From positions 1 through 64,000 of the forward strand of contig NZ_WOFO01000006.1 of the NCBI RefSeq assembly GCF_010993705.1: a DNA stretch of 64,000 nt, given 5' to 3'. Both the position numbers and the translations under genes were made by a program. The first letter of the stretch is position 1. Each line of letters begins with the position of its first letter. Shown here piece by piece: positions 1-4,081 of the stretch. The notes beneath the pieces were generated by a model. It was not told where the DNA came from, did not search any database, and worked only from the letters and a program-made list of their open reading frames with translations. This DNA is from Cyclobacterium sp. SYSU L10401 (lineage in GTDB: Bacteria > Bacteroidota > Bacteroidia > Cytophagales > Cyclobacteriaceae).

Positions 1-123
1 CCGGAGATGAAAAACTGATGCTTCTGGATAAGACTACTGACCAAAAGTCAATTTTAAAACACTTTAAGTGATTATGGGTGTCCCAATGATGAAGTCAGGT
101 GACCAGAAAAATTAGTTTTTATT

Positions 124-159
124 GTAAAAAAAAGCCATGAAACACTGTTTCATAGCTTT
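124..159 (-). terminator. Intrinsic terminator of tRNA-like RNA copy 1
   Basis: Read on the minus strand, a 13-bp stem (AAAGCTATGAAAC pairing with GTTTCATGGCTTT, one T-G wobble) with a 3-nt loop is followed by a run of at least eight T. It lies about 30 nt past the end of the tRNA-like cloverleaf. The same hairpin recurs after copy 2 at 3722-3750, so it belongs to the repeated RNA gene. Confidence 0.8.
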
Positions 160-190
160 AGTCAATTAACAATAAACCCAAAATAACCTG

Positions 191-314
191 CTGTAGGAGA
201 AGGAGTCGAACCTCCACGGAGCAGTTAGGCAAAATACGAGCTCGCTATTTGCTTTTTCCTTTGACCTCCACCCCCGAGACAGGAGGGCATGTCTGCCAGT
301 TTCATCATCCTACT
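191..314 (-). ncRNA. tRNA-like RNA, copy 1 (GTC in anticodon position, giant variable arm)
   Basis: The minus strand folds as a cloverleaf: acceptor (308-314 with 192-198, first pair A-A mismatched), a 3-bp D stem with a GG-containing D loop, a 5-bp anticodon stem with 7-nt loop CTGTCTC, and a canonical T arm (GGAGG, loop TTCGACT, CCTTC). The G at the discriminator position fits the tRNA-Asp reading of the anticodon. Three features are odd. Loop position 37 is a pyrimidine. No CCA is encoded. The region between anticodon and T arms is 55 nt, far longer than in known class II tRNAs. That region holds an inner hairpin (229-252) and an outer GGAG-CTCC pairing. A -7 box lies upstream and a terminator downstream, so it is probably transcribed. 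Whether it is a translating tRNA or a tRNA mimic cannot be told from sequence. Confidence 0.6.
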
Positions 315-392
315 GTATCTTGTCAAATATCCCGGTAGCCAGAAGTTTCTTTGCTTCACCAGGTCAAGACCAATTGTCTTTAATCGATGTTT

Positions 393-400
393 CAAAGTTA
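393..400 (-). promoter_or_regulatory. -7 box of tRNA-like RNA copy 1
   Basis: The minus strand reads TAACTTTG, a full match to the Bacteroidota -7 consensus TAnnTTTG. The matching position upstream of copy 2 (4074-4081) reads TACCTTTG. No clear TTTG -33 box is seen at the usual spacing. The implied transcript would carry a leader of about 70 nt before the cloverleaf. Confidence 0.5.
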
Positions 401-551: not shown

Positions 552-1589
552 TTAATATCCTTCAGTATTCGAATCCACCCTGCCCCAAAATGTCCTGTAG
601 ACAAAATAACTGTACAAGAGTACCAGCGGACCTCCAACGGCTACAAAACCCATCATGATTTTTAAGGTTTTGGTGGAAGCTGCAGCATTGTATATGGTAA
701 TACTATTTTCCTCAATGGAATTGGACCACAATAATCTTGGATAAAGTTCAAAAGCAACAATTACCAGCAATAATGCAATGGTAAGACTTGTGAAAATAAA
801 TGCCCAGCCATATTGTTGCTTACTCGCAAGTCTTGGTACGTTGGCAATACTCAAAAACACAAGAAGTGGCACGACAAACAAGATTCTATTTTCTAAAAAA
901 ACAACCAATAAGTGCTCCAGATTATAAAAACCGTATGCAGTAGTAATAAGGTAAGAAACGATAAAAAAGGCCATTCCTTTTTTCAAGAAACCCTCAATCC
1001 TTTGATAGAGTCGTCCCTGAGTTTTCAACAATAAATATATGGCACCGTGCATCATAAAAAGAGCCAGGCTGCTTACCCCCACCAGTATAGCAAATGGATT
1101 AAGAAATTCGAAGAAACCACGACCCGTATATTCGAAATTTTCATCAAGCGGCATGCCATTAAGGATATTGCCTAACACCACACCCAGTAAAAAAGCCAGC
1201 ATGATGCTGGATATGGAATATCCCCAATCCCACATTTTTCTCCACCAGGGCATCTCCTCCATATTTCTGAATTTGATAGAAATTCCCCTGAAAATAATGA
1301 ACAATAAGAAAAGTATAAATGGGGTATACATGGCAGAAAAAAGCGTTCCATAAAATACAGGAAAACCAGCAAATAAAGTGCCGCCACCTATTACCAACCA
1401 CACCTCATTGCCATGCCATGTAGGGTCAATGGCTTTCAAAGCGGTTTCTCTGCTACTGTTTTTTTTAAAAAACAAATGCCATGCCCCCGCTCCGAAGTCA
1501 AAACCATCTAATATGGCATATCCGGAAAAAAGTCCTCCAACTACTAAAAACCACCAGGTGGGATAATCTAATCCAAGTAAGGTTTCCAT
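552..1589 (-). CDS. cydB: Cytochrome bd ubiquinol oxidase subunit II
   Basis: 345-residue multi-pass inner-membrane protein of the CydB family. It opens with the typical 'W(F)xxxGxxxxGYAxLDGFDFGAG' region and keeps the conserved 'GNEVWLV' segment near residues 60-66. With CydA it forms the bd-type quinol oxidase, which reduces O2 to water with high affinity and generates proton motive force without proton pumping. It starts 7 nt after the cydA stop, so the two are surely cotranscribed. Length is normal for the Bacteroidota form. No cydX-like small ORF was recognised downstream; the next feature is the tRNA-like RNA gene. Confidence 0.95.
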   Translation of the reverse strand: METLLGLDYPTWWFLVVGGLFSGYAILDGFDFGAGAWHLFFKKNSSRETALKAIDPTWHGNEVWLVIGGGTLFAGFPVFYGTLFSAMYTPFILFLLFIIFRGISIKFRNMEEMPWWRKMWDWGYSISSIMLAFLLGVVLGNILNGMPLDENFEYTGRGFFEFLNPFAILVGVSSLALFMMHGAIYLLLKTQGRLYQRIEGFLKKGMAFFIVSYLITTAYGFYNLEHLLVVFLENRILFVVPLLVFLSIANVPRLASKQQYGWAFIFTSLTIALLLVIVAFELYPRLLWSNSIEENSITIYNAAASTKTLKIMMGFVAVGGPLVLLYSYFVYRTFWGRVDSNTEGY

Positions 1590-1596
1590 TCGACTA

Positions 1597-2973
1597 TTAT
1601 TTTGAAATTACATTTGAAATTTCATTATTTAAACTGCCCTCATTATAATCAATATCGCTTGTCGGTCCTTTTTTTATGGCTTTGTTCATCAAATAGACAA
1701 AGAGTAAGAAGAGTACTGTGTAAACGATAAAGAATAAGATCAAAGAAAACAAAACCTGGTTGGCCTGCACACTTTTTGAAAGAGCATCTGATGTCCTTAA
1801 CAGACCATAAACTACCCAGGGCTGCCGTCCCATCTCAGCAGCAAACCAACCAAACTGATTGGCCAATTGAGGTAATATAGCAGTGAACACAAAGGTCCAC
1901 ATCAACCATTTATTGTCAAATAGTTTTCCACGGCTCCACTGCCATAAAGCAAACATGCTCAAGGCAATCAAAAACATTCCTATGGCTACCATCAGATGGT
2001 AAAATTGGAAAACAGCATTGACCTGAGAAGGCCTGTCTTCTTCGGGAAAAGCATTGAGGCCCTTTACTGGGGTCTCAAAATCCTGATGCAGCATAAAGGT
2101 CAGCCCTGCCGGAAGTCTAAGACCGGTTACTTCTTGCTTTTCCTTATCTACCCATCCAAATAAATAGAGGTCGGCTGGTGCTGCTTCCTTAAAATGACCC
2201 TCCATGGCGGCCAGCTTAGCCGGTTGGTTTACGGCAACGCCTTCTGCAGAACGATGCCCGGTAAATAATTGAGCCAGGGATGCAACCGCGGCAACTACCA
2301 GGGTGATTTTAAAAGCTTTTTCAGACATATTAACAAACCGGCCTTTGATAATGTAATAAGCATGAACGCTTAGGATCAAAAAAGCTCCTGCCAGGAAGGC
2401 ACCAAGCCAGACATGGGTAAGGCGATCTACGGCGGAAGGGTTAAAAACCATGGCCCAAAAATCCACAATTTCTGCTCTTGCCCGCATGCCTTCACCTACA
2501 ATATGGTAACCAGCCGGAGTTTGTTGCCAGGAATTTGCCACTACTATCCATACCGCAGAAAACATGGACCCTAAAAACACAGCCCATGTCGCTAAAAGAT
2601 GCACCCATGGTTTGACCCGGTTCCAACCAAACAACAATACCCCCAGGGCACTGCTTTCCAAAGCAAAGGCAAAAATACCTTCCGCAGCCAGTGCACTACC
2701 AAAGATGTCTCCCACATAACGGGAATAGGTAGCCCAATTGGTGCCAAATTCGAATTCCATGACAATTCCCGTGACCACCCCTATGCCAAAGGTGATGGCA
2801 AAAATCTTGGTCCAAAACCTGGCCAATACTTCATACTCCTTTTTTCTTGTGCGCAAATAGATACTTTCAAAAACAACCATTAAAAGTCCTATACCAATAC
2901 TTAAAGGGGGATAGATATAATGGAAGGCTATAGTAAAGGCAAATTGAATACGAGATAAAATTTCAACATCCAT
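1597..2973 (-). CDS. cydA: Cytochrome bd ubiquinol oxidase subunit I
   Basis: 458-residue CydA, the haem-bearing subunit of cytochrome bd oxidase. The N-terminal His18 (in 'FAFTIAFHYIYPP') corresponds to the haem b595 ligand of the family, and the quinol-binding region around 'GHRSAEGVAVNQPAKLAAMEG' is present. The periplasmic Q-loop looks like the short type. It has about nine membrane spans. The ATG at 2973 is preceded by an AT-rich leader with a -7 box and a CRP-like palindrome at 3064-3097, suggesting oxygen- or energy-linked control by a Crp/Fnr-family protein (inference). It is the first gene of the cydAB operon. Confidence 0.96.
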   Translation of the reverse strand: MDVEILSRIQFAFTIAFHYIYPPLSIGIGLLMVVFESIYLRTRKKEYEVLARFWTKIFAITFGIGVVTGIVMEFEFGTNWATYSRYVGDIFGSALAAEGIFAFALESSALGVLLFGWNRVKPWVHLLATWAVFLGSMFSAVWIVVANSWQQTPAGYHIVGEGMRARAEIVDFWAMVFNPSAVDRLTHVWLGAFLAGAFLILSVHAYYIIKGRFVNMSEKAFKITLVVAAVASLAQLFTGHRSAEGVAVNQPAKLAAMEGHFKEAAPADLYLFGWVDKEKQEVTGLRLPAGLTFMLHQDFETPVKGLNAFPEEDRPSQVNAVFQFYHLMVAIGMFLIALSMFALWQWSRGKLFDNKWLMWTFVFTAILPQLANQFGWFAAEMGRQPWVVYGLLRTSDALSKSVQANQVLFSLILFFIVYTVLFLLFVYLMNKAIKKGPTSDIDYNEGSLNNEISNVISK

Positions 2974-3690: not shown

Positions 3691-3721
3691 GACCAAAAAA
3701 TTAGTTTTTCGATGCAAGAAA

Positions 3722-3750
3722 AAAGCCATGAAACACTGTTTCATAGCTTT
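3722..3750 (-). terminator. Intrinsic terminator of tRNA-like RNA copy 2
   Basis: The same 13-bp stem and 3-nt loop as at 131-159 is found here, followed on the minus strand by a T-rich tract. It lies about 32 nt downstream of the cloverleaf of copy 2. The sequence between cloverleaf and terminator is almost identical in both copies. Confidence 0.75.
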
Positions 3751-3781
3751 AGTCAATTAACAATAAACCCAAAATAACCTG

Positions 3782-3905
3782 CTGTAGGAGAAGGATTCGA
3801 ACCTCCACGGGGCAGTTAGGCAAAACACGAGCTCGATATTTGCTTTATACTGTGCTCCCCACCCCCGAGACAGGAGGGCATGTCTGCCAGTTTCATCATC
3901 CTACA
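3782..3905 (-). ncRNA. tRNA-like RNA, copy 2 (GTC in anticodon position, giant variable arm)
   Basis: Second 124-nt copy of the RNA at 191-314, in the same orientation. Here the 7-bp acceptor stem pairs perfectly (TGTAGGA with TCCTACA). The D, anticodon (loop CTGTCTC, 3867-3873) and T arms match copy 1. The long variable region differs in sequence but keeps its outer pairing: GGGG-CCCC here against GGAG-CTCC in copy 1, a compensatory change that supports a selected structure. The inner self-complementary block also persists. No CCA is encoded. Candidate readings are an unusual tRNA with an Asp-type anticodon or a non-translating tRNA mimic. Confidence 0.6.
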
Positions 3906-3965
3906 GTATATGAATGACTTTAGATGCAGGAGTGAGAAGTTAAAGGAAATTACCCCTTTTTAATT

Positions 3966-4000
3966 GCCTGCCGTAGGCAGGTTTCATCACCCTACAGTAT
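3966..4000 (-). repeat. Truncated 5' fragment of the tRNA-like RNA
   Basis: The minus strand shows the acceptor and D-stem start of the element (CTGTAGGGTGATGAAAC) and then runs into a palindrome, CTGCCTACGGCAGG, instead of the rest of the RNA. It lies between the -7 box at 4074 and full copy 2. The bases upstream of it align with the leader of copy 1, so the locus seems to have gone through a partial tandem duplication. Confidence 0.55.
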
Positions 4001-4073: not shown

Positions 4074-4081
4074 CAAAGGTA
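4074..4081 (-). promoter_or_regulatory. -7 box of tRNA-like RNA copy 2
   Basis: The minus strand reads TACCTTTG, a full TAnnTTTG match at the position homologous to 393-400 of copy 1. The adjacent leader sequence ('gtcttgatctggtc') is conserved between the copies. The leader here is longer, about 160 nt, because it includes the truncated fragment. Confidence 0.5.

Follow-up and report, generated by a model that had tools for sequence, protein, structure and literature searches.

A tRNA-like RNA with an aspartate-type anticodon loop and a large variable domain in Bacteroidota and phages

The DNA studied here, referred to as the window, is a stretch of 64,000 nucleotides from Cyclobacterium sp. 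SYSU L10401 (contig NZ_WOFO01000006.1, positions 1 to 64,000), and it contains two copies of a tRNA-like RNA on the minus strand. The copies flank two genes (552-2973, minus strand) whose sequences suggest cytochrome bd oxidase subunits. Copy 1 (Table 1) combines a 7-bp acceptor stem, a D stem of 3 bp whose loop is of the leucine type, a 5-bp anticodon stem and a 5-bp T stem with the loop UUCGACU, and its 3′ end carries one encoded C but no CCA. The first-pass annotation of this locus had described, on the minus strand, a cloverleaf whose variable region spans 55 nt, with GTC at the anticodon position, a pyrimidine at position 37 and no encoded CCA. The letters of copy 1 agree with this description (U37; C74 only), and the covariation of its relatives, shown below, proves the fold. 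The same annotation gave the RNA its own -7 box and intrinsic terminator, and matching sequences were found for both, the box matching the Bacteroidota -7 consensus. Copy 1 has an A1:A72 mismatch where the other 254 of 255 collected sequences have U1, and individual copies such as this one may be decaying.

The genome to which the window belongs (5.9 Mb, 22 contigs) was shown to contain three full copies beyond the two in the window, one on contig C1 and two on contig C9. Its ordinary tRNAs include a tRNA-Asp(GUC) and five for leucine. Two further loci of this genome (L006 and L007 in Table 1) share the tail found downstream of the RNA, with little or no recognizable cloverleaf; the L006 element might represent a separate subfamily or have been degraded. 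ARAGORN called 0 genes in the window and none of the five genomic copies.

Table 1. Positions of the tRNA-like RNA, its parts and related elements. Positions are those of the window unless a locus (L) is named; arms are read in minus-strand letters.
Feature	Position	Strand	Description or basis
tRNA-like RNA, copy 1	190..315	-	tRNA positions -1 to 74; C74 encoded (at 190)
Acceptor pairs, copy 1	314-308 / 198-192	-	G73 at 191
D arm, copy 1	305-289	-	
Anticodon arm, copy 1	287-271	-	
Anticodon-loop equivalent CUGUCUC, copy 1	276..282	-	GUC at 280-278; U (pyrimidine) at position 37
Variable domain, copy 1	216..270	-	exactly 55 nt; outer stem GGAG/CUCC; loop of the inner hairpin (238-243) is the palindrome GAGCUC
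T arm, copy 1	215-199	-	
-7 promoter box TAACTTTG (TAnnTTTG type), copy 1	393..400	-	sequence match
Conserved 3′ tail AGGTTATTTTGGGTTTATTGTTAATTGACTA, copy 1	159..189	-	between RNA and terminator
Intrinsic terminator, copy 1	about 126..158	-	hairpin and T run in sequence
tRNA-like RNA, copy 2	3781..3906	-	second copy in window
-7 box TACCTTTG, upstream of copy 2	4074..4081	-	sequence
Truncated 5′ half of a further copy, upstream of copy 2	3961..3998	-	sequence; ends in CCTGCCTACGGCAGG hairpin
Conserved tail and terminator, copy 2	3719..3780	-	sequence comparison
Shorter tRNA-like body, L006	L006 1400-1660 (G000:C12:449343-449407)	-	acceptor UGUAAAG/CUUUUACA, T arm GGAAGGUUCGAAUCCUUC; family tail and terminator
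Tail element, L007	L007 1450-1600 (G000:C9:890825-890863)	-	family tail and terminator; no recognizable cloverleaf in front
Short phage forms called by ARAGORN	L440, L453, L451, L429, L423, L418, L466		variable region shorter, still class II-like

The folding energy of copy 1 was no better than that of shuffled sequences (z -0.54), and its minimum free energy fold differs from the full cloverleaf. Thermodynamic folding of single copies showed no clear excess stability (three of the five stretches in one test were off-register), and covariation was therefore used as the test. Among the five genomic copies, 5 pairs are altered on both sides. An alignment of 66 sequences had 97.6% of cells paired and two-sided changes in 16 of 34 pairs, with 238 cells of two-sided change compared to a shuffle mean of 46 (0 of 500 shuffles as high). 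Since this alignment had been fitted to the model, 255 distinct sequences were also aligned with MAFFT, and the columns with the strongest covariation paired within the acceptor, D, anticodon and T stems and within the outer and inner stems of the variable domain, without any of these pairs having been supplied. This set (254 sequences from bacterial genomes and one viral sequence, from L256) was obtained by removing duplicates and sequences shorter than 105 nt, and then 4 aberrant sequences out of 259; 152 members came from loci found with a search pattern confined to the 3′ half of the RNA, which leaves the anticodon loop untouched, and the rest from model searches. Features of tRNA type are kept (cloverleaf, T loop UUCGA, G18G19 and C74). 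The variable domain, 55 nt in copy 1 and longer in many relatives, comprises an outer stem of 4 bp, the internal motif GGRAUAAA...CUAAC, which is conserved, an inner stem that is short, and a hairpin whose length varies. Pairing of GGRAUAAA with the anticodon-like loop or with the tail, proposed by eye, was unsupported in some members and was rejected. That these sequences represent a real, conserved family of structured RNA is, in our judgement, practically certain.

Model R1, built from the five genomic copies, was searched against 99 genomes, those of relatives together with the window's own, and its best match reached E <= 1.2e-20 in 77 of them, as read from the table of matches. The remaining 22 genomes showed matches at 2.4e-14 or weaker and were not counted, because such scores lie near those of ordinary leucine tRNAs with the later model, R2. 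Across the phylum, R2 matched 31 of 296 sampled genomes at E <= 1e-14, with 1 to 5 matches each, in a search whose stricter filters may have lost weak matches; the positive genomes belong to the window's own family and order, to other families of the class and, in two cases, to groups outside the class. The first-pass annotation had suggested a model search among relatives of the same order, and strong matches were found there and beyond. Its alternative, a standard tRNA with an insertion unique to this strain, does not fit the homologues with conserved pairing that are present phylum-wide and in phages. The pattern for the 3′ half alone matched at least 118 stretches in the collection of named genomes. 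The 80 matches listed include Cyclobacterium, Algoriphagus, Hymenobacter, Pontibacter, Chitinophaga, Niabella, Pedobacter and Mucilaginibacter, and also metagenome-assembled genomes of Saprospiraceae, two labelled Flavobacteriales and one labelled Ignavibacteriales. Copy 2 as a query had no match in plasmid records. ARAGORN called none of the 255 collected copies and none in 40 loci of relatives.

The RNA was also found in phages. A pattern of the D arm and anticodon arm matched at least 120 viral contigs, and the 80 examined all had an R2 match (E <= 2.8e-14); a second pattern, from which the anticodon loop was omitted, matched 60 further viral contigs, 57 of them with an R2 match. Together with L256 these 80 and 57 contigs form a viral set of 138 loci. 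The 80 phage copies scored 63-126 bits, compared to 54.9 bits for an ordinary Leu tRNA (L427 9754-9837) that the model also matched weakly. A looser viral pattern was discarded as giving chance matches, only L349 out of 80 loci reaching E <= 0.01 (28 bits). Neighbouring genes that were tested are phage genes; L543, for example, has those for portal, terminase and PhoH, and L450 those for DNA polymerase and helicases. L256 itself is a short viral contig with a DNA polymerase B fragment, Sir2 and a DNA methylase, and it carries a full-length, diverged copy (44-203, minus strand). Stem sequences diverge widely among the phage copies with pairing kept, and many of these copies have a larger variable domain with a GGGUWGACCAC hairpin, a motif that was part of the second search pattern. 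In some of them (L528-L587, e.g. L548 2867-3038, plus strand) the D loop contains an additional hairpin in which the GUCUC of the anticodon loop is found again (GGUUGUCUCAGUUAUGACC).

Leaving out calls that overlap the tRNA-like RNA, other tRNA genes were present in 75 of the 138 viral loci and in none of the rest, within the stretches examined. Another tRNA lay within 30 nt of the tRNA-like RNA in 41 loci; an ordinary tRNA-Asp was present in 16 and a transfer-messenger RNA (tmRNA) gene in 17. Seven short phage forms (94-97 nt; Table 1) among these 138 loci were called tRNA-Asp(gtc) by ARAGORN, and they may be family members in reduced form, or an intermediate step towards a class II Asp tRNA. 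In the provirus L255 (1-1434) the end of a phage-integrase gene coincides with the 3′ end of the tRNA-like gene, which thus appears to be used as an attachment site, as tRNA genes are. In annotated phage records neither copy 2 nor three phage-type queries had a match; a fourth phage-type query gave one match, to an unannotated 636-kb uncultured phage record.

Within the 255 sequences, U35, C36, G73 and C74 are present in all, as is the pair G2:C71; position 38 is C in 254 (A in 1) and position 34 is G in 242 (C 7, A 5, U 1). According to the review PMC9976931, G73, G34, U35, C36 and C38 are the strong aspartate determinants, G10 is listed as a determinant for Bacteria, and G1-C72 and G2-C71 are strictly conserved in bacterial tRNA-Asp. 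Other positions of the loop vary: position 32 is C in 143 and U in 112, position 33 is U in 209, G in 27, C in 13 and A in 6, and position 37 is U in 237, C in 14, G in 4 and A in none, i.e., a pyrimidine in 251 of 255. The 35 ordinary tRNAs of the window's genome that were examined have U33, a purine at position 37 and C74 without exception, and by reading only six of them encode CCA, so that a missing CCA is ordinary in this genome. Among these 35, only tRNA-Asp has the combination of determinants, and its loop CUGUCAC differs from that of the tRNA-like RNA solely at position 37. Phage copies that had been found without the loop showed GUC in 45 of 45 distinct sequences (44 by script; the truncated, mis-assigned L536 was read by eye as CUGUCUC). 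The conserved positions match the aspartate determinants, and the main ones read by aspartyl-tRNA synthetase (AspRS) are therefore kept, while residues needed on the ribosome are free or excluded. This pattern inclines us, if only slightly, towards recognition of the RNA by AspRS. Of the three options named in the first-pass annotation, a tRNA mimic or a regulatory RNA is best supported, and a recoding tRNA is unlikely because of positions 33 and 37 when compared to the U33 and purine-37 of all ordinary tRNAs examined.

In the collected loci, 50 of 197 transcription units hold tandem copies and the others a single one. A TAnnTTTG box was present within 130 nt upstream of 139 of 193 units, where shuffles gave 18.8 and the reverse strand 38. 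Hairpins resembling terminators were found downstream of 128 of 193 (4.0 in shuffles); from these promoter and terminator matches, the RNA would be transcribed as such. The tail GGTTATTTTGGGTTTATTGTTAATTGACTA (window 159-189 and 3751-3780, minus strand) sits between the RNA and the terminator. Its first 20 bases have exact matches at six loci of the window's genome, and a related GGGTTWAT/GGTTAAT motif occurs in 56 of 193 downstream regions compared to 4.0 in shuffles.

In 111 of 195 loci, the gene nearest upstream fell into a single similarity cluster (median length 157 aa) and was on the opposite strand every time; this count covers loci longer than 2.5 kb, includes two viral contigs and keeps duplicates. 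Two members of the cluster that were run against Pfam were both Lrp/AsnC-family regulators. For one member and for the homologue in the window's genome the best NCBIfam model was AsnC (4e-50, 169.5 bits), with a score below the cut-off of 227 bits, and the regulator is thus AsnC-like rather than proven AsnC. In several loci suf genes follow the regulator gene. Within the 296-genome sample a homologue of the regulator was found in 66 genomes at E <= 1e-38 and in 35 at E <= 1.2e-52, and the latter include all 31 RNA-positive genomes.

Of 113 phage copies, 102 have palindromes of at least 8 nt within the variable domain, compared to 21.0 in mononucleotide shuffles, as do 81 of 197 copies of the mainly cellular set (35.5 in shuffles); at a length of at least 6 nt the cellular set showed no clear excess (112 vs. 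104.7). These counts cover the copies with a placeable region of at least 25 nt (113 of 120 phage, 197 of 259 mainly cellular), among which near-identical copies are not independent. The palindromes differ in sequence (GCUUGCAAGC, GCCGGCCGGC, GCUAGCUAGC, UUGUGCACAA, and CGAGCUCG in the window's relatives), and thus self-complementarity rather than sequence seems to be kept. A natural reading of this pattern would be loop-loop dimers of RNA molecules.

Starting from the family, its structure and conservation, its gene linkage and its carriage by phages, we read the RNA as a putative non-decoding tRNA mimic of Bacteroidota and their phages that would be bound or charged by AspRS and be under AsnC-like control, a reading to which we give a probability of roughly 0.5. 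It would join a leucine-tRNA-like body with an anticodon loop of the aspartate-tRNA type and a large, structured variable domain. A promoter of its own would drive single or tandem copies, and the RNA would probably be excised and CCA-tailed as tRNAs are. It would most likely bind AspRS and may be aspartylated, and it would not decode, since U is not required at position 33 and a pyrimidine occupies position 37. The AsnC-type regulator, often encoded divergently beside the RNA, would probably control it, and the likeliest role would be in sensing or setting the status of aspartate/asparagine-tRNA, by titration of AspRS, by signalling or as a donor of aspartyl groups. The palindromic apical loops suggest paired molecules, and phages would carry the RNA to secure or alter Asp/Asn-tRNA control. 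The AspRS part of this reading comes from the conservation of determinants and the regulator part from gene linkage, neither of which is proof, and a regulatory role with AsnC-type control acting on Asp/Asn-tRNA status is proposed tentatively. The most far-reaching version is that of phylum-wide aspartylated, non-decoding and dimerising tRNAs, with AsnC-type control linking Asp/Asn-tRNA charging to physiology and phages taking this control over in infection; we regard it as doubtful.

Several observations weigh against this reading. The G1-C72 of tRNA-Asp is not kept (position 1 is U in 254 and A in 1, with A72 in 255 of 255), nor is its G10 (A 152, G 53, U 50); G34 is departed from in 13 of 255 sequences, position 38 is A in 5 of the 45 phage copies found without the loop, and AspRS could be impeded by the long variable arm. 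The models and patterns used to gather the sequences had been trained on the family, so that very different loops could be missed. As to the regulator, the cut at E <= 1.2e-52 was picked after the table had been viewed, and co-occurrence with the RNA is inflated by shared ancestry. Four genomes (G072, G100, G219 and G277) have the regulator and no RNA match, and in the first three no RNA was found within 1.5 kb on each side of it; the window's genome has a homologue (71% identity) with no RNA copy beside it.

The next of the alternatives is a regulator acting in trans, in which the GUCUC loop and the palindromic loops would base-pair with mRNAs or other copies and the tRNA scaffold would serve maturation and stability; we consider it unlikely. 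The UCUC-rich conserved loop, the excess of palindromes of at least 8 nt in phages and the repetition of GUCUC in the extra D-loop hairpin would suit it, but a pairing seed is not expected to vary at positions 32, 33 and 37 and hardly at all at 35, 36 and 38, and the likewise conserved G73 and G2:C71 lie distant from the loop. Somewhat less likely again is that the RNA stands in for tRNA-Asp as a decoy or spare target of attacking or modifying enzymes (anticodon nucleases, phage or host defence), serving phages as counter-defence and hosts as protection. Carriage by many phages, often adjoining tRNA genes, and the 1 to 5 matches per positive genome together with tandem arrays are compatible with such a decoy, whereas the linkage to an Lrp/AsnC-family gene across several orders suggests housekeeping; there may be a linked nuclease or toxin gene among the other neighbour clusters. 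That the RNA is a true elongator tRNA, eccentric in its variable arm but reading Asp codons, is improbable in spite of its Asp anticodon, G73, tRNA-like ends and the seven short forms called tRNA-Asp, for 46 of 255 sequences lack U at position 33, position 37 is never A, and an ordinary tRNA-Asp is present in the window's genome and beside the RNA in 16 viral loci. A decayed tRNA-Leu or a functionless mobile repeat, as the several similar copies, the truncated copy and the two tail loci might suggest, is scarcely credible in view of compensatory changes and invariant positions across the phylum and phages.

The preferred reading places the family among non-decoding tRNA-like RNAs, a known kind, and it is a member of neither tRNA-Asp, tRNA-Leu nor tmRNA. 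With Rfam 15, the window, the copy 1 region and the RNA in six other loci showed no relevant family match at gathering scores, and the RNA in these sequences was also without a match to the Rfam tRNA model. No prior description was found in the open-access literature, to which the search was confined, and an earlier one in subscription papers or preprints is possible. The RNA resembles bacterial tRNA-Asp(GUC) in G34, U35, C36, C38, G73 and G2-C71, but has a variable domain of at least 55 nt in most copies, and thus is not class I, a Leu-like 3-bp D stem and U1-A72, lacks A37, does not require U33 and has G10 unconserved. With bacterial tRNA-Leu (class II) it shares a short D stem and a similar D loop, but has G73 instead of A73, the Asp loop and a variable domain that is usually several times longer. 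Like tmRNA it is tRNA-like and also carried by phages; identity with tmRNA was rejected, as the anticodon arm is kept here with covarying pairs and the Rfam tmRNA model reached only 6.6 bits across 11 nt, under its gathering score, a tag reading frame not having been searched for. Allo-tRNAs and tRNA-Sec are class II tRNAs with unusual cloverleaves, and compared to these the present RNA has a 7-bp acceptor stem, a 5-bp T stem, an Asp rather than a Ser or Sec loop and a far larger variable domain. The nearest functional analogue found is tRNA-Other of Bacillus cereus, which according to PMC3399842 is a pseudo-tRNA that is tRNA-like, has no role in translation and is proposed to be regulatory, and lies beside a pathogenicity island. 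In contrast, the RNA described here forms a phylum-wide family that conserves Asp determinants and has a large variable domain; an AsnC-type gene often lies next to it, and phages carry copies.

This RNA is widespread, often present in several copies, and carried by phages beside tRNAs and tmRNA, which hints that a function connected with tRNA charging in Bacteroidota is still to be explored. Phage genomics gains a new marker gene and annotation a family to add, as Rfam has no entry for it and the tRNA finder skips the bacterial copies. The family would also provide a natural test of how the positions that a synthetase recognizes can persist when decoding is lost.
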